DNA of 64,000 nucleotides from Natronomonas salina (GTDB taxonomy: Archaea > Halobacteriota > Halobacteria > Halobacteriales > Haloarculaceae): NCBI RefSeq assembly GCF_013391105.1, contig NZ_CP058335.1, positions 3,038,001 through 3,102,000 of the forward strand. Direction: 5' to 3'. Every line of letters starts with the position of its first letter. The stretch's first letter is position 1. Position numbers and translations under genes: made by a program. Below, in pieces: positions 6,080-63,314 of the stretch. The notes below the pieces were generated by a model. The model searched no databases. It was given only the letters and a program-made list of their open reading frames with translations, and had not been told where the DNA came from.

Positions 6080-6451
6080 CTACTCGCGGCCCGTGACCTT
6101 CCGGATGCACGACGAACCGAACGGTCCGTGCTCGCCGGCCTCCAGCTTCATGAAGTAGCCCGTCGAGATGGAGGCGCCGCAGCGCCGGCAGTCGAACTCC
6201 CCCTCCCGGGAGACGACCTCGCTCTCGAAGCTGAGGAACTGCCCGCCGTTCGGCTTCACCGTGTCCCCCTCGCGGGTGATGTGGCCCCGCTTCTCCGCCT
6301 CCTCGAGGATGGCCCGCGTCGTTTCCGGGTGGGCGGTCACCGTCTCGATCCGGTCGATCACCTCCGGCAGCGGCAGCTCCGCGTGCTCGAGTCGGGCCAG
6401 CAGCTGCACGCCGAGTTCGACTGCGTCGTCGCCGGGGTCGGCCTCGTCCAC
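6080..6451 (-). CDS. Winged-helix plus zinc-finger protein (DUF5830-like)
   Basis: 123 residues. The N-terminal ~75 residues look like a MarR-type winged helix (helix-turn-helix in PEVIDRIETVTAHPETTRAILEEAEKRGHI, wing GDTVKPNG). The C-terminal part has CRRCG followed by a distant Cys (GSSCIRK), suggesting a small metal site. I recall this architecture as a haloarchaeal family (DUF5830), from memory only. Start codon GTG at 6451 gives MDEADPGDD. It is divergent from the TVP38-type gene and may be a transcription regulator; targets unknown. Confidence 0.75.
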   Translation of the reverse strand: MDEADPGDDAVELGVQLLARLEHAELPLPEVIDRIETVTAHPETTRAILEEAEKRGHITREGDTVKPNGGQFLSFESEVVSREGEFDCRRCGASISTGYFMKLEAGEHGPFGSSCIRKVTGRE

Positions 6452-6535
6452 ACCGGCGTCAGGGCGCCGGTCAGCTAAAAGTCACCGGGTAACCGCACCA
6501 CAAGAGGTTTGCCGGACGGCGGACTCGCCGTAGAC

Positions 6536-7195
6536 GTGAACCGCGCGACCGCCCGCCAGCTCGCCGGCATCGGCGCCGTCGCCGCCGTCGCCGGCGCCGC
6601 CGCCCTCGCCACCTCGCCGTCGGCGCTGTTCGAGCACGCCGAGACGCTGGCCCGGCGGCCCGCGCTCCTGGCGGTCGCGCTCCTCCTCGTCTACCTCGTC
6701 CGCCCACTGCTCGCCTGGCCCATCAGCGCGCTCTCCATCCTGCTGGGCTACGTCTACGGTCCCGTCGCCGTCCCCGTCGCGCTGGCCGGCGCGGTGGTGA
6801 CGACGCTGCCGGCCTACGCGACCGCCCGCTACTTCGGCCACGACGCCGGCCTGCTGGCCCGCGTCGGCGACGCCGGCGCGCTGGTCCGGAAGACCACCGG
6901 CGACCTCCGCGGGGTGATCGCCGTTCGCCTCGCCCCGCTCCCGACCGACCCCGTCTCCTACGCCGCCGGGCTCGCGGGCGTCCCGCTGCGCCCCTACGTC
7001 GTCGGCACTGCCATGGGAGAGGGCCCCTGGGTCGTCGCGACCGTCCTGCTGGGCGCCTCGATGGGGCAGTTGACCACCGTCGGGCTCACCGGCGACCCGC
7101 TGTTGCTCGTCACGACCGTCGCGCTCGCGGTGCTGCTCGCGCTGTCGGGGCCGGCCTACCGGCGGCTGGCCGAGACGCGCGCCGGCGCGCAGTAA
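6536..7195 (+). CDS. TVP38/TMEM64 (VTT domain) family membrane protein
   Basis: About 219 residues with six hydrophobic segments. The central part, with RPLLAWPISALSILLGYVYGP and RLAPLPTDPVSYAAGL, carries the VTT/DedA-like hallmarks: a Gly-rich re-entrant segment and the conserved R-x-x-P-x-x-P motif. Members are implicated in membrane or lipid homeostasis; in archaea their role is unclear. GTG at 6536 gives MNRATARQLAG; an earlier TTG at 6509 is possible but less likely. The divergent partner is the winged-helix gene, with an 84-nt shared promoter region. Confidence 0.85.
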   Translation: MNRATARQLAGIGAVAAVAGAAALATSPSALFEHAETLARRPALLAVALLLVYLVRPLLAWPISALSILLGYVYGPVAVPVALAGAVVTTLPAYATARYFGHDAGLLARVGDAGALVRKTTGDLRGVIAVRLAPLPTDPVSYAAGLAGVPLRPYVVGTAMGEGPWVVATVLLGASMGQLTTVGLTGDPLLLVTTVALAVLLALSGPAYRRLAETRAGAQ

Positions 7196-7198
7196 TTG

Positions 7199-7324
7199 TC
7201 AGAAAAGGAAGGGGTCGCTGCAATCGACCACGACTCCGTGCTGCGGACAGACGTACTTGCAGTGGCGCTTGAACAGCTGGGCGCCGCACATCGGGCAGGG
7301 TCGACCGCCCTGCTCGTCGGTCAT
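7199..7324 (-). CDS. 41-residue zinc-finger microprotein
   Basis: A short ORF read directly from the sequence: ATG at 7324, stop at 7199. The product has CPMC at residues 10-13, then H21/C22, C26 and H29 and C35, so it has enough Cys/His ligands for one compact zinc site, and ends in CSDPFLF. It resembles the very small haloarchaeal zinc-finger proteins known from Haloferax (I believe close to the HVO_2523-type family, not verified). It lies 60 nt downstream of nrdJ on the same strand and may be cotranscribed with it. The stop lies just beyond the end of the convergent TVP38-type gene. Confidence 0.78.
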   Translation of the reverse strand: MTDEQGGRPCPMCGAQLFKRHCKYVCPQHGVVVDCSDPFLF

Positions 7325-7384
7325 AGTGGAGACGCGTGCGACCGCGTGAAAAAGGCTCCGTCGCGAGGAACTCGCCGCGCTAGC

Positions 7385-10300
7385 TCAGCACTCCGACCAG
7401 CCGCAGGACTCGCAGGTCTTGCAGCCCTCGGAGTAGTACAGCGTCATGCTGGAGCACTCCGGGCACTCGGGGGACTCCCCGGACTCGATGAGCGACTGCG
7501 TGGCGTCGTCGGCGCCGGCCGCGTCGTCGTTCGGCGAGGCAGCCGACGAGCCTGAAGCGGACACCGCGCCGCCGTCTGTCTCAGGAGCGGAGGCGTCGCG
7601 CCGCGTCGCCTCGTCGTCGTCGGTGCCCTCCTCCTCGGCGATCTCGGTGAGGTTCTGCTGCTGGGGGTAGGCCTTGTCGACGTCGCCGTCGAGGTACCGC
7701 CGCATCGCGGTGCCGACGGCGTCCGGGATGGAGTTGATCTGCTCGCCCTTGTCCCAGGCGACCTTCGGCGACCGGATGCCCTGCAGCTCCTCGGCGATCT
7801 CCTCGGGGTCGACGCCCGAGCGCAGCGCCGTCGAGATGGTCTTCGCCAGCGCCTCGGTGAAGCTGGCGGTGAAGCCGCCGGAGTTGCCGATGTTGGCGAA
7901 CAGCTCGAACGGCCGACCCGTCTCGGGGTCCTCGTTGATGTTGACGTAGAGCTTCCCGTAGCCGGTGTCGATGCGCTGGGTCACGCCGTGCAGCACGTCG
8001 GGGCGGGGCCGCTTCTTCCCGAGGTCGACCTCGACGTCGAGGAGCCCCTCGAGGTCCTCCCCGAGGGCGGCCTCGACCTCCTCGCTGTCGAGGAAGCCCT
8101 CGATGCCGCCGAAGATCTCCTCGATCTGGGCGACGATGGCCTCGGCGGCCTCGTCCTCGTCGGCGAACTCGGCGTTCTTCGCGCGCGTGGTGAGCACCTG
8201 CTTCGAGCGGGTGCCGTCGCGGTAGTAGGTGACGCCCTTGCCGCCGTGCTCGTAGATGTACTCGAAGACCTCCTTGGCGTCCTCGACGGTGGAGTCGTTC
8301 GGCGCGTTGACCGTCTTCGAGATGGCGGAGTCGACGCCCGCCTGGCAGGCGACCTGGACGCCGGCGTGCTCCTTCGCGGAGAGGGCGCCCGTCGTCACGA
8401 ACAGCTCGCCGACCGCGTCCGGGACCGTCGTCAGCCCGGTGACGCCGTCGAACTCGTTGTTCGCCATCTGCTCTTGGGCCTCCTCCTTGACGGCGTCGAC
8501 GTCGATGTCGTTCTCCTCCAGGACGCGGAGGAAGTAGTCGTCGAACTCGACGAGCATCTCGTCGCCCTGGACGTCGTCGGAGACGTTCTTGTAGTAAGCT
8601 ACGTTGTAGATGGGCTCGCAGCCGCCGGTGGTGTTCCCGACCATCGAGGTGGTGCCGGTCGGCGCGATGGTCGTCGTGTTGTGGTTGCGGATCGGGAAGC
8701 CGTCGGCCCACTCGTCGGCGTCGAGGCCGGTCTGGTGCTCGAACCACTCGCGGTACTCGGTGGGGTCGGCGTACTTGCTGTTGTCCCACTCCTCGAAGGC
8801 GCCGCGCTCCTCGGCGAGCTCGTGGGAGGCCCACTTCGAGCCGTGGTTGATGTGCTTCATCAGCTGGCGGGCGACCTCGTTGGAGGAGTCGCTGCCGTAC
8901 TCCATGCCGAGCTGGATGTACAGCTGAGCCAGCCCCATCACGCCGAGGCCGATCTTCCGCATCTCCCGGACCTTCTGTTCGATCTTCGGGACCGGGAAGT
9001 CCGACATCGTCACGACGTTCTCTAGGAAGCGCGTGCCGAGTTCGATGCGGCGGTCGAACTCCGCCCAGTCGATACCCTCCTCGAGGAAGGCCTCGATGGC
9101 CGCCTCCGTCGAGTCGTACTCGTCGGCGTGGCGGTCCTGCCAGACGCGCCAGTCGGGGGCGTCCTCGGCGACCAGCGTCGAGAGGTTGATGTGCCCGAGG
9201 TTGCAGGCCTCGTACTCCTCGAGGGGCTGCTCGCCGCAGGGGTTCGTCGCGAGGATGCGGTGGTCGGGGTGCTCCTCGACGTCGAAGGAGTGCTCCTTGT
9301 TGACGCGCTCGAGGTAGATGACGCCGGGTTCGCCGTTCTCGTGGGCGCCCTCGACGATGTGGTCCCAGAGCTTCTCGGCGGGGACGGAGAGCTCCTCGCC
9401 GACCTCGACGTGCTCGCCGAGGCCGAACATGTCGTACAGTTCCTTCGTCTCGGGCGTCGCGACGTGGGCCTCGCCCGTGCGCGGGTTGGTGAAGGTGAAC
9501 TCCTCGCCGTTCTTCACGGCGTCCATGAAGTCGTCGGTGATGCCGACGGAGATGTTGAAGTTAGAGAGGTGCCCCTCGACGGCGTTCCGGAGGTGCTCGG
9601 GGACGCGGCCCTCGTCGTCGATGAGGCCGCGGGCCTCCTCGAGGGCGTCCGCGAAGGAGTTGTGCGTGAAGTCGTCGGGGTCGTTCAGCCGGAGGGTCTC
9701 CGCCAGCGAGACGTCCTTGTTCTTCGCGTGGAGGAACTGGATGACGTCGGGGTGGGAGACGCGCATGACGCCCATCTGGGCGCCGCGGCGGGCGCCGCCC
9801 TGCGCGATGGTCTCGCACATCTGGTCGTAGGTCCGCATGAAGGTGATCGGGCCGCTGGCGATGCCGCCGGTAGAGCCGACGGCGTCGCCGTAGGGCCGGA
9901 GCCGCCAGAAGGCGTAGCCCATCCCGCCGCCGCTCTGGAACACCTGGGCGGCCTCCTTGGCGGTCTGGTGGATGTCGTCGATGTCGTCCTCGGGGGAGTC
10001 GACGAAGCAGGCGGAGAGCTGCTGGAGTTCGTCGCCGGCGTTCATCAGCGTCGGCGAGTTCGGCATGAAGGAGAGCCGCTCCATCAGCTCCTGGAACTCG
10101 TCGGCGGTCGACTCGACGTGCTCGCGGATCTCGTCGGGGAGCTCGTCGACGAGCGTGTCGTAGGCGAACTTGTTGACGTTGTAGACCGAGAGGGTCGTCT
10201 CGGCGTCGGCGTCGGCCGTCACGCCCTTCCCGAAGACCTCCTCGGCGAGTTCGTCGCGGCGCGGGTGGTCGGGCTTGAGAAGGTCGGGGGTGACAGTCAC

Positions 10301-52294: not shown

Positions 52295-52795
52295 GTGTAG
52301 GTTCGCGTGACCGACGGCGTTCGTCGCGCCCGCGGGCGGCGTGGCGTCGAAGGTGACATGGAAGCGCGATTCGAAGCGATATCGAAGAGGGCGCTCCCGC
52401 GGCAGCGCGTCGTCCAGGTCGCGGTCACAGGTTCGTCCCGGACCTCTCCGACGACAGCTATTGTAATACGGACCGTAACGCCCTGTTGCGGTCTCGCCCG
52501 TCGACAGAGCGACTACAGAGCCTATCGACGCTGCGGTCGCTCGACCCTCGATGTCCGGTCCAGCGGGCGAGTTATCAGTTCGTTAAGATGGAATTATCCG
52601 AGTGTCGAGCGCTCACGAGAACGTGAAATCGAGTGGTCGACCGGGGGATTGGCCCACAAGCGACGCCCGGTGCTGGTGCTATTTCGGTCCTCCCTCGCCG
52701 GACACGACCGGCAGGTCTGATTTCCACCTCGGCATACCTCGGACTCTCCGTCTTCGATGTTACGGACGGCTCACTGGTCCTGTTCGACCGGATAG
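52295..52795. other. ~500-nt intergenic region upstream of the DUF4129 operon
   Basis: No convincing gene. An open frame at 52307-52720 (+) has arginine/serine-rich, non-haloarchaeal composition. A tattgtaatacgg element near 52460 could be a distant TATA box for the minus-strand operon. The tRNA-Leu 3' end borders the region on the right. No repeats matching the tRNA end were noticed. Confidence 0.5.
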
Positions 52796-52880
52796 TGCGA
52801 GGGGAGGGATTCGAACCCACGGACCCCTACGGGAGCGGATCTTAAGTCCGCCGCCATTGTCCAGACTCGGCCACCCTCGC
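52796..52880 (-). tRNA. tRNA-Leu (TAA)
   Basis: 85-nt class II tRNA: acceptor GCGAGGG (52880-52874) with the 3' strand ending at 52797, discriminator A at 52796; anticodon loop CTTAAGA with anticodon TAA at 52844-52842; long variable arm containing TCCCGTAGGGGTCC; T loop TTCGAATC. No intron. Confidence 0.95.
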
Positions 52881-53081: not shown

Positions 53082-55067
53082 ATGTCGGATTCACAAGAAA
53101 GCGGTAAGCCGACCCGCCGAAAGCTCCTCCAGGGGATGGGGGCTGCGAGCGTCCTCCCTGCTGTCTCCATCTCGGGGTGTTCGTTCCTCGAGGACGGAAA
53201 CGGTGACGACGGAGAGGTGTCCTTCCCCCTCGAGGTCCAGCTGGAGACCAACAGCGACAACCCCGAGCGAGTGGAGATGGTCGAGGTCATCGCCGAGACG
53301 ATGAACCAGTCGGGCTACTTCGACGCGTCCGTCGAGACCTACGAGTTCAACGACTTCGTCCAGCGCGTCCTGAACCCCGACTACGGCACCCGCGGCCACA
53401 TCGGCTGCATCGGCCTCTCGGGGACCTTCAACCCGGAGAGCTTCTGTAACGCCCTGAACCACTCCGACAACGTCGGGCAGTGCTGTAACCTCTCGGGCGT
53501 CAACGACGAGGAACTCGACCAGATGATGGACAACGCCCGGTACGGCGTCGACGTCACCGAGGACCCCGAACTCCGCCGGGAACGGTACGACGAGGTCTGG
53601 CAGTACCTCGCCGAGGAGGCCTACAGCTCGATGGTCTTCTTCGACGTCAACGCCGCGATGACGAACAACAACGTCCACGGCTACGACGTCTTCCCGTTCA
53701 ACGAGTTCATCATCAGCTACGCGCTGCACGCCCCGCAGGACGAGCAGGTCATGTGGATGGACGAGGGCTCCGACCCCCGGAACACGGACCTCTCGGACCT
53801 CCAGGAGGGCGGGACCCTCCGCGCGGCCATCGCCGAGAACCCCGGCTCGTTCGACCCCGCCTACAGCAGCAGTACGACCTCCTCGCTCGTCCAGTACAAC
53901 GTCTTCGAGAGCCTGACCACGACGGACATCGAGGGCAACGTGATGCCGTGGCTCGCCCGGAGCTACGAGGTCACCGACGTCCAGGACGTCCAGCCGGCGG
54001 ACTACGCCGACTACATGGAGTCGGTGGCCACGAACGACGAGGGGGCCATCCAGACCGACGAGCAGATCCTGGTCACCCACCCCGACGACGACCCGGCCTC
54101 CGACGACGAGGTCCGCGTGCTGCTCCCCGACGGCGCCGCCGACGCCGCGGCGGACGACGTCTTCGGCATGCGGATCCGGTACGAACTCCACGAGGGCGTG
54201 GAGTTCCACAACGGCGAGGAACTCAGCGCCGAGCACGTCGTCCGGTCGATGGAGTACCACCACAACTCCGACATCTCCGCGCAGACCTTCGACTCGGTGC
54301 TGCACACCGAGGCCGTCGACGAGTACACCGTCGACATCTACGGCCAGATCGCCGACGCGGAAGGCGAACGCGAACTGCCCGGAATCCTCGTCCTGTCCAT
54401 GGAGAACATGGACGCCGCCGACCCCCAGCCCGGCGCCAGCGGCACCATCATCGACCCGCGCAGCGACATCACGCCGTACGGGACCGGCCCCTACACCCTC
54501 ACGGACTTCCAGGACGAGCAGTACGTCGAGTACGAGAAGTTCGACAACTACTGGCTCGACCAGCAGGGCGTCGACACCCTCGAGTGGTTCGACGGACCCG
54601 AGGAGTTCCCGGACGGCCCGGTCATCGACGCGATCTCCTACGAGATCGTCCCGGACAACGCGACCCGGTCGGCGTCGCTGCAGAACGACGAGGTCGACAT
54701 GACCTACGACCTCTCGAAGGACACGTTCAGCGACTACGAGGAGTCCGACGACTACCTGCTGTACACGATCGAGGCGGGCGGCTACACCTACCTCCAGGCG
54801 CCGCTGCAGGTCGAACCGTTCGACGACAAGCGCATGCGCCAGGCGTTCAACCACCTGATCAACCGCGAGTACGTGGTCCAGAACATCCACGACGGCTACG
54901 GCCGCGAGGCCTGGACGCCGCTCCCGGAGATCGCCTACGAGTCGGGGACCACCGACCCCGAGGCCCTCGAGGAGGAGATCCGCCCGTACAACGAGCACGA
55001 CACCGAGCGGGCGGTCGAACTCATCGAAGAAGTTATCGACGACCGCGGCTACGCCTCAGACGTCTAG
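53082..55067 (+). CDS. Family-5 peptide-binding lipoprotein with circularly permuted domain order
   Basis: 661 residues. Twin-arginine signal (R12-R13) and lipobox ending at Cys33. Then, unusually, residues ~46-235 read like the C-terminal part of family-5 solute-binding proteins: TNSDNPERVEMVEVIAE, QCCNLSGVNDEELDQMM and the closing HGYDVFPFNEFIIS. The canonical N-terminal start QEGGTLRAAIAENPGSFDP appears only at ~241, followed by VFESLTT, GVEFHNGEELSAEHV, ITPYGTGPYTL and the MRQAFNHLINREYV helix. The protein stops after VELIEEVIDDRGYASDV, where the early segment would continue. Every part appears once, so this is a permutation, not a duplication. Predicted to bind oligopeptides or similar for the ABC operon downstream. 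Confidence 0.88.
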   Translation: MSDSQESGKPTRRKLLQGMGAASVLPAVSISGCSFLEDGNGDDGEVSFPLEVQLETNSDNPERVEMVEVIAETMNQSGYFDASVETYEFNDFVQRVLNPDYGTRGHIGCIGLSGTFNPESFCNALNHSDNVGQCCNLSGVNDEELDQMMDNARYGVDVTEDPELRRERYDEVWQYLAEEAYSSMVFFDVNAAMTNNNVHGYDVFPFNEFIISYALHAPQDEQVMWMDEGSDPRNTDLSDLQEGGTLRAAIAENPGSFDPAYSSSTTSSLVQYNVFESLTTTDIEGNVMPWLARSYEVTDVQDVQPADYADYMESVATNDEGAIQTDEQILVTHPDDDPASDDEVRVLLPDGAADAAADDVFGMRIRYELHEGVEFHNGEELSAEHVVRSMEYHHNSDISAQTFDSVLHTEAVDEYTVDIYGQIADAEGERELPGILVLSMENMDAADPQPGASGTIIDPRSDITPYGTGPYTLTDFQDEQYVEYEKFDNYWLDQQGVDTLEWFDGPEEFPDGPVIDAISYEIVPDNATRSASLQNDEVDMTYDLSKDTFSDYEESDDYLLYTIEAGGYTYLQAPLQVEPFDDKRMRQAFNHLINREYVVQNIHDGYGREAWTPLPEIAYESGTTDPEALEEEIRPYNEHDTERAVELIEEVIDDRGYASDV

Positions 55068-55095: not shown

Positions 55096-56052
55096 ATGAG
55101 CCTCCAACGATTCATACTCAAGCGACTACTCTCGGTCATCCCGATACTCTTCGGTGTCTCGCTCATCACGTTCGCGCTGGTCCACCTCACGCCGGGCGAC
55201 CCGATCTCGCAGATGGTGGCGATGAACCCCCACGTCGGCGCCGCCGAGGAGGCGGCGTTGCGCGAGCGGTACGGCCTCGACAGGCCGGTTTGGGAGCAGT
55301 ACGGCACCTGGATGATGAACGTCCTGACCGGCGACTTCGGCCAGGTGTACCGCAGCGGCGAGGCCGTCAGCGCGGTCGTCCTCCGGCGGCTGCCGGAGAC
55401 GCTCGCGCTCGCGCTCTTCGGGTGGCTGTTCGCCATCGGCATCGCCGTCCCGACCGGCATCTACGCGGCCGCGAACAAGGACCAGTTCGGCGACACGGTC
55501 AGCCGGTTCCTCGCGCTGTCGGGCATCTCCATCCCGAACTTCTGGCTCGGGCTGATGCTCATCCTCGTGTTCGCGCTGTGGCTCGGCCTCTGGCCGGTGC
55601 TGCCGCCCTCCCGGGAGCCGCTGTACAGCACCGAGATGCTCTGGTACCTCCTGCTGCCCGGCGTCACCATCGGGACGGCGGCCGCGGCGAGCATCATGCG
55701 CGTGATGCGCACCTCGATGGCCGAGGAGCTGAACAAGGAGTACGTCACGGCGGCCCGCGCGAAGGGGCTCCCGGAGCGACAGGTCGTGCTCAAGCACGTC
55801 CTCCGGAACTCGCTGATCTCGGTCGTCACGCTCGCGGCGACCATCACGGCCGGGCTCGTCGCCGGGTCGGTGGTCGTCGAGGTCGTCTTCAACTGGCCGG
55901 GGCTCGGCCGCGAGTTCATCTTCGCGATCAACCGCCGGGAGATCAACCTCATCATGGCCATCACCCTGTTCACGGGGCTGGTCATCATCCTCGCGAATCT
56001 CGTCGCGGATATCCTCTATGCGGTGCTCGACCCGCGGATTCGGTACGACTAG
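55096..56052 (+). CDS. Peptide ABC transporter permease (DppB type)
   Basis: 318 residues, six membrane helices; the start MSLQRFILKRLLSVIPILFGVSLI and LTPGDP motif after TM1 are typical of DppB/OppB. The cytoplasmic EAA loop (EELNKEYVTAARAKGLPERQVVLKHVLRN) contacts the ATPases. 28 nt after the binding-protein gene. Confidence 0.92.
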   Translation: MSLQRFILKRLLSVIPILFGVSLITFALVHLTPGDPISQMVAMNPHVGAAEEAALRERYGLDRPVWEQYGTWMMNVLTGDFGQVYRSGEAVSAVVLRRLPETLALALFGWLFAIGIAVPTGIYAAANKDQFGDTVSRFLALSGISIPNFWLGLMLILVFALWLGLWPVLPPSREPLYSTEMLWYLLLPGVTIGTAAAASIMRVMRTSMAEELNKEYVTAARAKGLPERQVVLKHVLRNSLISVVTLAATITAGLVAGSVVVEVVFNWPGLGREFIFAINRREINLIMAITLFTGLVIILANLVADILYAVLDPRIRYD

Positions 56053-56061
56053 ATACAACTC

Positions 56062-57096
56062 ATGTCCAAGCAACGAGGCAGAATTCGGATATCTGGTTTC
56101 GACTCCGAACGCGTCCGGCGACGAGAGGCGTCCTCGACGGCCGCCGACGCGGACGAACGGGAGACGGAGAGCCGGTGGCGTCGCGGCTACCGGCGCTTCC
56201 GGCGGAACCGGTCGGCGATGCTCGGCGTCTACGTCGTCCTCGGACTCGTCCTGCTGACGGTGTTCGCCCGGCCGATCGAGATATTCGAGGTGACCGTTCA
56301 GCCCTTCTCGATCGCCCCGTACGACCCAAATATCCGCCACGACCTGTTCGGGACCGGCGCCGCGAGCTACGAACCGCCCTCCACGCAGCACTACTTCGGG
56401 ACCGACGGCAGCTCCCGGGACATCTTCTCTCGGGTGCTGTACGGCGGCCGCTACAGCATCTCGATCGGGTTCATCGTCGTCGCACTGACCGCCAGCTTCG
56501 GCCTCGTCTACGGCGGCGTCTCCGGCTACTACGGCGGCTGGGTCGACGAGGTGATGATGCGCATCGTCGACACCATCTTCGCGTTCCCGGGGCTCATCCT
56601 GGCGCTGGTCATCGTCGCCGTCCTCGGCGGGGGCTACTGGCAACTGGTCCTGGCGTTCAGCATCTTCGGGTGGGCCTCCTACGGCCGGCTGGTCCGGGGG
56701 GAGGTATTGACGATCAAGGAGAACGAGTACGTCCTGGCGGCGAAGGCGCTCGGCGCCAGCGACCGCGTCGTCATCACCCGGCACGTCCTGCCGAACGCGA
56801 TGCCGCCGCTGCTGGTCGTCGCGTCGCTCAACATCGGCACCGTCGTCATCGGCGTCGCCGCGCTCGGCTTCCTCGGGCTCGGGCTCGGCCCGACCTCCGC
56901 CGAGTGGGGGACGATGCTCGACGCGACCCGCGAGACGCTCATCCAGGGCCCCGGCGGCCAGATCCCCTGGTGGGCGACCGTCTTCCCGGGGCTCGCCATC
57001 TTCGTCTTCGTGATGTCGATGAACATGATCGGCGACGGCGTCAACGACGCGCTCGACGCCCAGGAGACGGGCGTCGCGCGCGGGGGTGACGAGTAG
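56062..57096 (+). CDS. Peptide ABC transporter permease (DppC type)
   Basis: 344 residues with a basic, Arg/Glu-rich cytoplasmic N-terminus (~1-50), six helices, the periplasmic-side HYFGTDGSSRDIFSRVLYGGRYS block typical of DppC, and an EAA loop (KENEYVLAAKALGASDRVVITRHVLPNA). Pairs with the upstream permease. Its TAG stop shares a base with the GTG of the next gene. Confidence 0.92.
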   Translation: MSKQRGRIRISGFDSERVRRREASSTAADADERETESRWRRGYRRFRRNRSAMLGVYVVLGLVLLTVFARPIEIFEVTVQPFSIAPYDPNIRHDLFGTGAASYEPPSTQHYFGTDGSSRDIFSRVLYGGRYSISIGFIVVALTASFGLVYGGVSGYYGGWVDEVMMRIVDTIFAFPGLILALVIVAVLGGGYWQLVLAFSIFGWASYGRLVRGEVLTIKENEYVLAAKALGASDRVVITRHVLPNAMPPLLVVASLNIGTVVIGVAALGFLGLGLGPTSAEWGTMLDATRETLIQGPGGQIPWWATVFPGLAIFVFVMSMNMIGDGVNDALDAQETGVARGGDE

Positions 57097-58499
57097 TGCC
57101 GCTGCTCGAGGTGAACGACCTCGGCGTCGAGTTCTACACGGAGGACGGCATCGTGCGGGCGGTCGACGACCTCTCGTACCGCATCGAGTCCGGCGAGAAG
57201 TTCGGCGTGGTCGGCGAGAGCGGCGCCGGCAAGAGCGTCACGGCGCTGTCGCTGATGCGGCTCATCGAGGAACCGGGCCGCATCACGGGCGGTTCCATCC
57301 GCTTCGGCGGGAGCGACGCCGTCGAGTCCTTCGAGGCGGAGTTCCCCGACCACGTCGTCGACCTGGAGGCGCTCCGCGCCGACCACGGCCTCTCGGAGGT
57401 CGCTCGACGGCTCGACGAGCGGGGCGTCGCCGCGTCGGCGCTGACCGGCGATTCGAGCCACGACGGGGACCGCCTCGTCGATCTCGCCGAGTCCGACGCC
57501 TTCGACATGGCCGACGTCGTCGGCAAGGGCTACGCGGCCGACCTCGGGCTGGTCGGCGACGACGACTTCATCGTCCACGACGGCGCCGACCGCTACGTCG
57601 AGGTGCTCCGGGCCCCCGAGCGGGCCGTCCGGCAGCTCCGCGGCAACCACGTCGCGATGATCTTCCAGGACGCCCAGACGGCGCTGAACCCCGTCTACAC
57701 GGTCGGCGAGCAGATCGCCGAGACCGTCCGCCACCACCTCGACTACGACGACGAGGCGGCCCGCGAGCGGGCGATCCGGCTCCTCGACGAGGTCGGCATC
57801 CCCGAGCCGGAGTACCGGTACTCCGACTACCCCCACGAGTTCTCCGGCGGGATGCAGCAGCGCGCAGTCATCGCGATGGCGCTGTCCTGCGACCCGGACC
57901 TCCTCATCGCCGACGAGCCGACGACGGCCCTGGACGTGACCATCGAGGCGAAGATCCTCAAGCAGATCGAGGAGCTCGCCGACGAGTTCGACACGGCCGT
58001 CCAGCTCATCACCCACGACCTCGGCGTCATCGCCGAGCTCTGCGACCAGGTGATGGTGATGTACGCCGGCGAGACCGTAGAGAAGGCGCCCGTCGAGGAC
58101 CTCTACTACGACCCGAAGCACCCCTACACGGTCGGGCTGATGAGCTCGATCCCCCGCGTCGGCGACGACCGCGAGCGGCTCCAGACCATCCCGGGGACGA
58201 TGCCCGACCTCATCGACGTGCCGACCGGCTGCAGCTTCCACCCCCGGTGTCCGTACGCCGAGGAGGTCTGCCGGCGGAAGCACCCGCCGCTGGTCGACCC
58301 CGACACCGCCGCCCGGTCCGACGCCGGGACCGAGCGGGCAGCGAGGTGCCTGGAGTACACCGGCGACCTCGAGGAGGGCCTCGACTACGAGGTAGTCGTC
58401 CGCGAGGAGGACAGCGAGGTCCACGAGCGGACCGGCACGGACGTCGATGGCCGTCCCGACGGGACCGACGACGGCAACGGGGGTGCCCGCAGTGAGTGA
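57096..58499 (+). CDS. Peptide ABC transporter ATP-binding protein (DppD type) with a ~100-residue insertion
   Basis: 467 residues. Walker A GESGAGKS (40-47), Q-loop at MIFQDAQTALNP (~191), signature FSGGMQQR, Walker B LLIADEP, H-loop ITHDLG, then the C-terminal oligopeptide-type Cys motif (CSFHPRCPYAEEVC ... RCLEY). Between Walker A and the Q-loop lie ~100 extra acidic residues (about 72-178) not found in ordinary DppD, where the spacing is ~50. Start GTG 57096 overlaps the permease stop. Confidence 0.9.
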   Translation: MPLLEVNDLGVEFYTEDGIVRAVDDLSYRIESGEKFGVVGESGAGKSVTALSLMRLIEEPGRITGGSIRFGGSDAVESFEAEFPDHVVDLEALRADHGLSEVARRLDERGVAASALTGDSSHDGDRLVDLAESDAFDMADVVGKGYAADLGLVGDDDFIVHDGADRYVEVLRAPERAVRQLRGNHVAMIFQDAQTALNPVYTVGEQIAETVRHHLDYDDEAARERAIRLLDEVGIPEPEYRYSDYPHEFSGGMQQRAVIAMALSCDPDLLIADEPTTALDVTIEAKILKQIEELADEFDTAVQLITHDLGVIAELCDQVMVMYAGETVEKAPVEDLYYDPKHPYTVGLMSSIPRVGDDRERLQTIPGTMPDLIDVPTGCSFHPRCPYAEEVCRRKHPPLVDPDTAARSDAGTERAARCLEYTGDLEEGLDYEVVVREEDSEVHERTGTDVDGRPDGTDDGNGGARSE

Positions 58500-59844
58500 C
58501 CGAACCGAGGAGCCGATCGTCCGGGTCGAGGGGCTGACGAAGCACTACGACGCCACCGGCGGCTTCGTCGACCGGCTCCTCGGCCACGAGGAGATCGTCC
58601 GGGCCGTCGACGACGTCGACCTCGAGCTCCGCGAGGGCGAGACCCTCGGCGTGGTCGGCGAGTCCGGCTGCGGGAAGACGTCGCTGGGACGGGCGATGCT
58701 CCAGTTGATCGAGCCCACGTCGGGCTCGGTCTACTACCGCGACGAGGACCTCACGGAGATGTCGAAGGGGCGGCTCAGGGAGGTCCGGAAGGACCTGCAG
58801 TACATCTTCCAGGACCCCTTCTCGAGTCTGAACCCCCGGATGACCGTCGGCGACATCATCGGCGAGCCGCTGGACATCCACGACCTGGCGTCGGGCCAGG
58901 ACCGTACGAACCGTATCCACGACCTCCTGGAGACCGTGGGGCTGAACGCGAGCCACGCCCACCGCTACCCCCACGAGTTCTCCGGCGGGCAGCGCCAGCG
59001 CATCGGCATCGCGCGGGCGCTGGCCGTCGACCCCGAGGTCATCATCTGCGACGAGCCGGTGTCGGCCCTCGACGTCTCCGTGCAGGCGCAGATCCTCAAC
59101 CTGCTGGAGGACCTCCAGGCGGAGTTCGGGCTCTCGTACGTCTTCATCGCCCACGACCTCTCGGTCGTCGAGCACATCTCCGACCGCATCGCCGTGATGT
59201 ACCTCGGCGAGATCGCCGAGATCGGCGAGACGCCGGAGGTCTTCGAGCCGCCGTACCACCCCTACACGGAAGCGCTGCTGTCGGCCATCCCGGAGCCCGA
59301 CCCCCTCTGGGAGGGCGACCAGATCCTGCTGTCGGGGAACGTCCCCTCGCCCATCGACCCGCCGTCGGGCTGCCGGTTCCACACGCGCTGCCCGCAGGTC
59401 ATCCAGCCCGAGGACGTCGACGTCCCCCAGGGCGAGTGGCGCGCGCTGATGGACCTCAAGATACGGCTGGCCGACGCCGACGGCCTCGAGACGGTGACCG
59501 CTCGCGCCGCGGACGCCGACGGAACCGACCCCGCCGAGGCCCCGGAGACCGCCCTCGAGGCGCGCGTCCGCGAGGAGTTCGACCTGCCGGAGCGGCTCTC
59601 CGATCCGTCGCTCCGGGAGGCCTTCGCCGACGCCGTGGCACGCCTCGAGGACGGCGACGTCGACGCCGCCCACGAGGCGCTGCGCGCGGCCGTCCGCTCG
59701 CCCTGCGAGCACGAGGACCCCGCGCTGGTGGACGTCACCGACACCCACCGGGTCGCCTGCCTCCGCTTCGAGGAGGGGTACCCGGACCCCGGCGAGGTGC
59801 CGGACCGGGCGACCGACCCCACGACGGGGACCGGCGACGACTGA
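58492..59844 (+). CDS. Peptide ABC transporter ATP-binding protein (DppF type)
   Basis: About 450 residues. Walker [10 protein letters not shown]-loop [12 protein letters not shown], signature FSGGQRQR, Walker B VIICDEP, H-loop [10 protein letters not shown]. The Cys pair CRFHTRC of the oligopeptide-type C-terminal motif is separated from its later partners (SPCEHED, VACLRF) by ~110 residues ([18 protein letters not shown] ...), an expanded form. GTG 58492 gives [12 protein letters not shown] and overlaps the previous stop by 8 nt; a longer form from 58447 is possible. Confidence 0.91.
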
Positions 59845-60614: not shown

Positions 60615-62222
60615 ATGACCGACGACGCCAACAACCGATACGACGTCTCCCGTCGGACGCTGATGAAGGGGGCCGGCGCGGCCGGTCTCGGTTCCATGGC
60701 CGGCTGTACCGACCTCGGCCTGGGCGGTGACGAGGGCACCACGACCCTCTACTTCGCACAGGAGAAGGGCCCACTCGAGTTCGACCCGATCGTGCTCAAC
60801 GACGTCCCGTCCGCACAGATCTCCGAGCGGATCTTCCAGGGACTGTTCACCTACTCCGAGGGCACCGAGATCGTCCCGGAGCTGGCGGCCGGCGAGCCCG
60901 AAGTAGAACGCGACGGTACCCGTTACATCGTCGAGATCAAGGAGGACGCCGAGTTCCAGAACGGCGACCCCGTCACCGCCGAGGACGCCGCCTACTCCCT
61001 GACCGCGCCGGTCCAGGAGGAGACCGAGAACGCCGCGGAGGTCGACATGATCGACTCCGCGGAGGCCATCGACGAGAAGACCGTCCAGTTCGACCTGGGA
61101 TTCCCGTACGCGGCCTTCGATACGACGCTACTGTTCAACATCGTCCCGAAGTCCGTCCGCGAGGAGGACAAGACCGCGTTCAACGAGGAGGAACCGGTCG
61201 GCTCCGGTCCCTTCCAGTTCGTCGAGTACACCCAGGAGGAGTCCGCGACCATCGAGGCGTGGGACGACTACTGGGGCGAGGAGTCCCCCGAGGTCGACGA
61301 GGTCGTCTGGACGGGCATCCCGGACGGCACGACCCGGCTGACCTCCCTCCAGAACGGCGAGAACGACATCATCGAGACCGTCCCGCCGGACCTCTACTCC
61401 GAACTCGAGAACAGCGACGAGGCCGAGATCATGTCGTCGCCGTCCATCGGCTACTACTACCTCGCGTTCAACTGCAACGAGGGACCGGCGACCGACCAGC
61501 GCGTCCGCGAGGCGGTCGACTACTGCTTCTCGATGGACGAGGCCGTCTCGAACCACATCGAGCCGGCCGGGGTCCGGCAGTACAGCCCCATCCCGGCGGC
61601 CGTCGCCGAGCAGTGGGAGTTCCCGACCGACGAGTGGGCGAACGTCCCCCACGAGAAGGACATCGACGCCGCGATGAGCCTCTTCGAGGAGGCGGGCGTC
61701 GACTCCGACTACGAGTGGCGGATCATCGTCCCGCCGGACGACCTCCGCGAGCAGCTGGGTGTCTCCGTCAGTAACGGCCTGCAGGAGGCCGGCTACGACG
61801 CGTCGGTCCAGCGGCTCGACTGGGGCGCGTTCAGCGACCAGTACATCTCCGGCAACGAGGACGACTACAACATCTACGCGCTCGGCTGGTCCGGAAGCCC
61901 GGACCCCGAGGCGTTCACCTACTACCTCTTCGACCAGGAGGTCGAGGGGGTCACCAACGGGACGTTCTGGCAGAACGACGAGATCAACGGCGAGAACGGG
62001 CTCATCCGGCAGGCCCGCGAGACGCCGGACCGCGAGCAGCGCCGCGAGATGTACATCGAGGCCATCAACACGACCCTCGAGGAGCGGCCCCACCTGCCGG
62101 GCTACGCACTGGCGAACAGCTACGGCGTGCGGAACTACGTCGAGGGGTTCCAGTCGCACCCCGACTCGGCGACCATCCCCATCGCCCAGGAGTACACCAC
62201 GGTCTCCATCGGCGAGCGGTAA
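60615..62222 (+). CDS. Family-5 peptide-binding lipoprotein (canonical order)
   Basis: 535 residues. Twin-arginine signal with RR at 13-14 and lipobox Cys31 (SMAGC). Mature part in the usual order: TTLYFAQEKGPLEFDPIVLND, then FQGLFTYSEG, DAEFQNGDPVTAEDA, PVGSGPFQFVEY, TDQRVREAVDYCFSM, DASVQRLDWGAFSDQY, YALGWSGSPDPEAF and the C-terminal YALANSYGVRNYVEGF. Extracellular, lipid-anchored; substrate probably peptide or nickel-like chelate, unresolved. First gene of a second, separate transporter operon. Confidence 0.93.
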   Translation: MTDDANNRYDVSRRTLMKGAGAAGLGSMAGCTDLGLGGDEGTTTLYFAQEKGPLEFDPIVLNDVPSAQISERIFQGLFTYSEGTEIVPELAAGEPEVERDGTRYIVEIKEDAEFQNGDPVTAEDAAYSLTAPVQEETENAAEVDMIDSAEAIDEKTVQFDLGFPYAAFDTTLLFNIVPKSVREEDKTAFNEEEPVGSGPFQFVEYTQEESATIEAWDDYWGEESPEVDEVVWTGIPDGTTRLTSLQNGENDIIETVPPDLYSELENSDEAEIMSSPSIGYYYLAFNCNEGPATDQRVREAVDYCFSMDEAVSNHIEPAGVRQYSPIPAAVAEQWEFPTDEWANVPHEKDIDAAMSLFEEAGVDSDYEWRIIVPPDDLREQLGVSVSNGLQEAGYDASVQRLDWGAFSDQYISGNEDDYNIYALGWSGSPDPEAFTYYLFDQEVEGVTNGTFWQNDEINGENGLIRQARETPDREQRREMYIEAINTTLEERPHLPGYALANSYGVRNYVEGFQSHPDSATIPIAQEYTTVSIGER

Positions 62223-62318
62223 CCGCCGCCGACCCCCTTCGAGTGTACGGTTCGCTCGGCGTCGAGCGAGACACCATCCGATCTGCGGTCCTCGAGCACG
62301 CAACTACAGGTGACATCT

Positions 62319-63314
62319 GTGGGACTACTGAGATACACACTCTGGCGCGTCGGCCAGACGATCCCGGTGATCGTCGGCATCGTGACGATAACGTTCCTCC
62401 TGTCGAACGCCATCCCCGGCGATCCCGTCCGGATCATGCTCGGGCCGACGCCGAGCGCCGAACTCGTCGAGCAGATACAGGCCAAGTACGGGCTCGACCA
62501 GCCCCTCCACGTGCGCTACTGGAACTACATCAGCGGCGTCGCCCAGGGTGACCTCGGGTACAGCATCCACTACGACCGCCCGGTCACCGAGGTCATCGCC
62601 CAGCGGCTCCCGGTGACGCTGATACTCATGGTCTCGGCGTTCGCCTTCGCCATCGCGACGGCCGTCCCGCTGGGGATGATCTCGGCGAAGCGCCGGAACA
62701 AGCCGACCGACCACCTCTCGCGGGTCTTCGCGCTCGTCGGCGTCTCGACGCCGTCCTTCTGGATCGGCCTCGTTCTCATCATCCTGCTGTCCTACCAGCT
62801 GAACCTGTTCCCCTCCTCGGGGATGATACTGCCGTGGGCCGACCCGACCGACGTCAGGGGCGCGACCAACCAGCTCGGGGTGGTGTTGCTCTCGGCGTAC
62901 CACCTGGTGCTGCCGACGATCGCCCTCGGGACGCTGCAGATGGCCGCCATCACGCGCATCGAGCGCTCCTCGATGGTCGAGTCGCTGCACGCCGAGTACG
63001 TGAAGCTGGCCCGCGCCTACGGCGTCTCCGAGCGGACGATCCTCCGCAAGCACGCCTTCCGCGTGGCCCAGCTACCCGTCATCACCATCATCGGGCTGCA
63101 GCTGAGCTCGATCCTCGGCGGGGCCGTCCTCATCGAGACGGTCTTCAACATCAACGGCATGGGGCGGCTCATCATCCAGGCGGTACAGGCCAACGACTAC
63201 CAGCTCGTGATGGGGACGACCATCGTCTTCGGGCTGTCGTTCCTGGTGGGCGTCATCATCACGGACATCTCCTACGCGTACATCGACCCGCGCGTCAGCT
63301 ACGGTGAACGATAA
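62319..63314 (+). CDS. Peptide ABC transporter permease (DppB type), second operon
   Basis: 331 residues with six helices. MGLLRYTLWRVGQTIPVIVGIVTI at the start, AIPGDPVRIMLGP, and the EAA loop SLHAEYVKLARAYGVSERTILRKHAFR. GTG 62319 chosen by comparison with family N-termini; GTG 62310 adds three residues. The stop overlaps the next ATG by one base (TAATG). Confidence 0.92.
   Translation: MGLLRYTLWRVGQTIPVIVGIVTITFLLSNAIPGDPVRIMLGPTPSAELVEQIQAKYGLDQPLHVRYWNYISGVAQGDLGYSIHYDRPVTEVIAQRLPVTLILMVSAFAFAIATAVPLGMISAKRRNKPTDHLSRVFALVGVSTPSFWIGLVLIILLSYQLNLFPSSGMILPWADPTDVRGATNQLGVVLLSAYHLVLPTIALGTLQMAAITRIERSSMVESLHAEYVKLARAYGVSERTILRKHAFRVAQLPVITIIGLQLSSILGGAVLIETVFNINGMGRLIIQAVQANDYQLVMGTTIVFGLSFLVGVIITDISYAYIDPRVSYGER

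Follow-up and report, generated by a model that had tools for sequence, protein, structure and literature searches.

The window analysed here is a 64,000 nt stretch of the Natronomonas salina genome (contig NZ_CP058335.1, positions 3,038,001 to 3,102,000). At positions 53082–55067 of its forward strand it holds a gene of 661 aa for a family-5 (SBP_bac_5) solute-binding lipoprotein whose two main parts stand in circularly permuted order. The start codon, an ATG at 53082, agrees with the N-terminus of an orthologue from the same genus (L101). Positions 53082–53180 (+) encode a Tat-type signal (TRRKLLQGMG) and a lipobox with Cys33 (codon 53178–53180), followed by a short anchor spacer, SFLEDGNGDDGEVS (53181–53222, +), which leads from the lipid-anchored Cys to the first strand of the former C-terminal block. 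This block (FPLEVQLETN...QVMWM, 179 residues, 53223–53759, +) comes first. A new linker of 16 residues, DEGSDPRNTDLSDLQE (53760–53807, +), then connects the old C-terminus with the old mature N-terminus, and the former N-terminal block (GGTLRAAI...RGYASDV, 419 residues, 53808–55064, +) comes second. It stops in a helix–strand loop at which canonical relatives run on into the C block, and no second C-terminal segment is present 3' of the gene. The mature protein has 629 aa, compared with mostly 612–641 in canonical relatives. Coordinates, frame, Tat signal, lipobox, the begin of GGTLRAAI at residue 243, the end at RGYASDV and the normal mature length had all been stated in an original prediction made from the sequence alone, and all of them held.

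Downstream and on the same strand follow genes for a DppB-type permease (55096–56052, BPD_transp_1), a DppC-type permease (56062–57096, BPD_transp_1 and OppC_N), a DppD-type ATPase (57096–58499) and a DppF-type ATPase (58447–59844), the latter two each with ABC_tran and oligo_HPY. Thus, the association with DppB/C/D/F-type transporter genes, one criterion for the family, is met. The DppD-type ATPase (467 aa) appears, as read from its sequence, to carry an insert of about 90 residues between Walker A and Q-loop, and its ABC_tran match breaks into two stretches at this point. A second operon, of Opp type, begins shortly downstream (60615–63314). Its binding protein at 60615 matches positions 1–363 of the SBP_bac_5 model in ordinary order, as had been predicted.

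The whole window protein scores 166 bits against the Pfam model SBP_bac_5 (PF00496; cut-off 32.4), with residues 363–650 as the best stretch, matching model positions 17–275. When the two parts were aligned separately, as the original prediction had proposed, residues 243–661 matched positions 17–275 (151 bits) and residues 33–242 positions 281–341. The latter match is weak, 18 bits and under the gathering score, but both halves hit the swapped model parts as expected, and the possibility that the N-terminal block belongs to a different family is refuted, for it is the C-terminal part of the same family that was matched. A canonical sister (L044) covers positions 16–339 in one stretch; a linear N-to-C match of the window protein to this model was not obtained, since its blocks are swapped, and to the linear models in NCBIfam there were only matches below cut-off. 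Among solved structures, phmmer aligned residues 361–660 to positions 67–349 of the 3m8u chain and residues 51–207 to positions 351–498, and the same swapped two-piece alignment was found for 1xoc. The window protein is, therefore, a member of SBP_bac_5 by homology, as a topological variant. What defines a natural circular permutation is fulfilled: each block is present once, their order is swapped, and this order is kept in relatives. Altogether, we consider it very likely (about 0.9) that this family-5 solute-binding protein is genuinely circularly permuted and forms the lipid-anchored subunit of a Dpp/Opp-type importer, with transport, binding and expression being inferred. This topology has been missed in annotation because automatic profiles score only part of a permuted protein.

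Structure prediction agrees with this view. AlphaFold2 modelled the window protein from 36 permuted sequences with a pLDDT of 89.7 and a pTM of 0.87, and the canonical sister L044 with 91.7 and 0.88. After rotation of the permuted sequence, the secondary structure of both models agrees at 94% of 589 aligned positions. In Foldseek the canonical model matched 1xoc over 622 columns with a TM-score of 0.72. The best PDB matches of the permuted model were all family-5 binding proteins, so that the fold criterion for cluster C is met, by a predicted and not a solved structure; their TM-scores were only about 0.33–0.42. Such low and partial matches are expected for a permutation because Foldseek depends on sequence order. 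The three-dimensional likeness was judged from secondary structure and TM-scores, without superposed coordinates. We regard the ordinary two-lobed Venus-flytrap fold as very likely for the permuted protein, as far as a model can predict it. In the canonical model the cut site lies between the helix 404–412 and the strand 422–429.

Orthologues in canonical order occur, for instance, in the genomes G257, G328, G060, G047, G201 and G075. Their two blocks match the window protein at 53–59% identity and directly abut each other, and the lengths of the blocks are nearly equal in both forms (407–419 residues, approximately, for the N block and 178–180 for the C block among close relatives; the matching blocks of canonical orthologues have ~409 and 179 residues). 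Both halves of the window protein are equally similar (58–59%) to the canonical sister. The linkers of permuted relatives have 16–22 residues, 16–19 in all but one, and the motif of the window linker is common to most of them. The linker starts at the point where canonical proteins end, their last residues being DRE, DE or DRD; towards its own end (TDLSDLQE-GG) it can be aligned with the spacer that precedes GG in canonical mature proteins. The Tat signal and lipobox are of the same type in canonical relatives and, for L068 and L044, homologous at the DNA level. Furthermore, permuted and canonical genes alike as a rule precede high-identity homologues of DppB, DppC, DppD and DppF. Among close permuted genes, pairwise dN/dS was approximately 0.07–0.35 in both halves, showing that both are under purifying selection.

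A scan of GTDB contigs, 391 Halobacteria genomes and whole-family searches yielded, after removal of duplicates, 47 distinct permuted genes, all full length and colinear with the window gene. They are mostly 50–65% identical to the window protein and fall into three family groups: f1, with two species, both of the window's own genus; f3, with Natronorubrum and Natronococcus among its members; and f4, to which Halorubrum belongs. A sample of 393 genomes of the phylum added no permuted copies outside Halobacteria. The window's genome is a single contig of 3.75 Mb, and several permuted orthologues also sit in single-contig genomes. Because the same order is found at full length in dozens of independent genomes, a misassembly, which had been named as a possible objection, can be excluded. 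Within the window's genus the permuted gene occurs in only two of the searched genomes and a canonical orthologue in one, a patchy presence suggestive of horizontal acquisition or repeated loss. Some 200 bases separate the permuted gene from a tRNA-Leu gene upstream (52795–52880, -). The locus L083 (genome G418, 6225–8141, -) holds a divergent permuted protein with 43% identity and no DppBCDF genes inside the fetched flank. Judged from their sequences, DUF1611-like and enolase-superfamily (dipeptide-epimerase-like) genes lie nearby; as these stand beside no other fetched locus, they were dropped as a clue to the substrate.

On a tree built from rotated sequences of permuted and canonical genes, the permuted genes do not form one clade. 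The canonical gene of G075 appears as sister to the permuted gene of G054 (support 100/99). The two also pair when only the N block is used (99), when only the C block is used (90, weaker) and in a tree of the four transporter proteins (99). The two proteins share 73–74% identity in each half. At the DNA level the two loci align at approximately 75% both in the 5' flank, which includes the signal sequence, and in the 3' flank; between these flanks the two blocks align in swapped positions. A single clade of all permuted genes was rejected by the AU test (p = 0.0012; 0.0001 without long branches). Since G054 and G075 are paired in the trees of both halves and of the transporter proteins, and a single permuted clade is rejected, the block order has changed at least two times in this family.

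Which changes these were is less clear. One clade of permuted genes together with G075 was not rejected (p = 0.10; 0.08 without long branches), while two gains with G054 apart fit worse (p = 0.031; 0.017 without long branches). The tested groups were picked after the first tree had been seen, so that these values are indicative only, and the permuted clade that takes in the canonical sister (L044) is merely "not rejected" (p 0.08–0.10). The G054 linker has a mean BLOSUM score of 34.0 against the other permuted linkers, compared with 13.3 against canonical spacers; similar ancestral spacers might explain part of this likeness. The hinge loop of G075 is two residues shorter than usual, and the ancestral motif is absent from it. 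From the AU fits, the G054 linker and the G075 hinge loop we favour, by a small margin and with the tree unresolved, one permutation followed by at least one reversion (G075) over independent permutations. In a bolder reading, to which we lean with no more confidence, permutation is reversible: an extracellular protein of about 600 residues was permuted once, spread through the haloarchaea, and was at least once restored to the ancestral order in place. If so, reversion has left G054 and G075 with sister operons in which opposite halves of the binding protein lead. The review text of PMC3320104 makes no mention of permutation reversals. The free maximum-likelihood tree also nests a canonical group, f9, within the permuted genes. 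Its hinge loop is still of the ancestral type (e.g. GIETP in L047), and the group has probably never been permuted, although the tree does not resolve this.

As to the origin, we infer that a canonical operon was already in place and that the permutation arose within it, through a tandem duplication of the binding protein gene followed by deletion. The first copy would have retained signal, lipobox and C block, the second would have given the spacer and the N block, and a stop codon would have arisen in the helix–strand loop, an internal site in normal relatives. In the permuted protein the chain runs from this loop to the old C-terminus, passes through the linker of 16 residues to reach the old mature N-terminus, and returns to the same loop. 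The route of origin is inferred because the signal is kept in place and because, in many permuted proteins, hinge-loop residues occur at both of the new ends. The signal had originally been described as re-acquired; given its canonical-like type and the DNA homology of L068 and L044, it was more probably kept. Near the 77 loci, neither a duplicated intermediate nor a leftover half-gene turned up; the only finds were distant paralogues of the binding protein.

Several other routes have to be weighed against this one. Independent permutations, in which several canonical genes were each cut at the same loop without any reversion, remain possible. In their favour are the ancestral-type hinge of f9 and the nested position of this group among the permuted genes when the tree is unconstrained; moreover, a cut may be tolerated at few sites besides this loop, and linkers derived from similar spacers might look alike. 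However, all permuted proteins including G054 share the same cut and an alignable linker of nearly fixed length, two gains fit worse than one gain and a reversion of G075 according to the AU values given above, and the short G075 hinge without ancestral motif looks as if remade. A canonical gene might also have been split and its halves rejoined in opposite order without tandem duplication. Fission and fusion is a recognised route to permutation (PMC3320104), but we consider it unlikely here: separate half-genes were not seen in any locus, a C half on its own would have had to carry a separate Tat signal and lipobox, and the permuted signal resembles the canonical one and occupies the same operon position.

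Nothing was found to support a fusion in which a foreign C-terminal fragment, taken from a different binding protein gene, was joined to an N-terminal one. The permuted genes fall into the same clade whichever half is used, G054 stands beside G075 in each case, and the two halves are equally similar to the canonical sister (58–59%), which makes this explanation very unlikely. An assembly artefact or a pseudogene, likewise without any supporting evidence, is all but excluded, since dozens of independent genomes show this order, several of them assembled as one contig, and the reading frames are open with dN/dS well below 1 in both halves.

With the canonical cluster C proteins of PF00496 (DppA, AppA, OppA, NikA) the window protein shares full-length homology after rotation, the same predicted fold and the same Dpp operon type, but its block order is rotated. 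The original prediction of a permuted family-5 protein held, on the basis of swapped alignments, orthologues and canonical sisters; its remark that it knew of no described example needs a correction. A natural permuted binding protein of another class is already known, Tp0684 of Treponema pallidum (TpMglB-2/MglB-2), termed type Ic/cluster Bc (PMC4990184). Like the window protein it is a naturally permuted ABC-type ligand-binding lipoprotein, but it has a glucose-binding fold of type I/cluster B and a different cut. The window protein is not of this TpMglB-2-like type Ic, as its sequence and fold matches in the PDB are family-5 proteins. For family 5, no earlier example was found among titles and abstracts of the open-access literature searched, an absence which is no proof. 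Permutation by duplication has been described for saposin/swaposin and DNA methyltransferases, and general models have been reviewed (PMC3320104); these cases represent the same class of rearrangement and proposed mechanism in different families. It is rare to find a natural permutation together with close canonical sisters. The permuted part of Tp0684 is only 13% identical to its canonical counterpart in E. coli (PMC4990184), whereas here canonical sisters reach 73–74% per half, and both forms exist at 53–74% identity in the same operon context. Such natural pairs make the origin, cost and reversibility of permutation directly testable; here a large protein was rewired in nature while it remained under selection, which is rare.

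With regard to function, we infer, without data on transport, binding or expression, that the protein works outside the cell as the binding subunit of an ABC importer of Dpp/Opp type. Capture and delivery of the ligand would otherwise proceed as in normal relatives. In DppA, Asp408 and Arg355 contact the dipeptide termini, which is consistent with the mutant named in 8z1z. Neither residue is conserved in canonical or in permuted members: in a pairwise HMM alignment they face a gap and an Asn in the canonical L044, and the permuted protein carries the same motifs as L044. Therefore, DppA-style binding of dipeptides is not assumed, and the mode of ligand binding probably differs. In DppA and OppA the canonical termini both lie on lobe I, and the cut site is inside the C-terminal lobe (domain III). 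From this it is inferred that the lipid anchor, on lobe I in canonical relatives, likely sits on the C-terminal lobe in the permuted protein.

In three loci (L064, L065 and L066, from genomes G272, G057 and G087) the permuted gene is followed by DppB and DppC only, and a divergent paralogue operon of canonical order with its own ATPases lies about 9–10 kb away on the opposite strand. These permuted systems may thus borrow their ATPases. Finally, a vicinal Cys pair followed by Asn (QCCN, residues 133–136, positions 53478–53489) occurs without exception in the permuted and canonical proteins that were aligned and is missing from the aligned DppA sequence; a role in ligand or metal binding or in a disulfide is possible.
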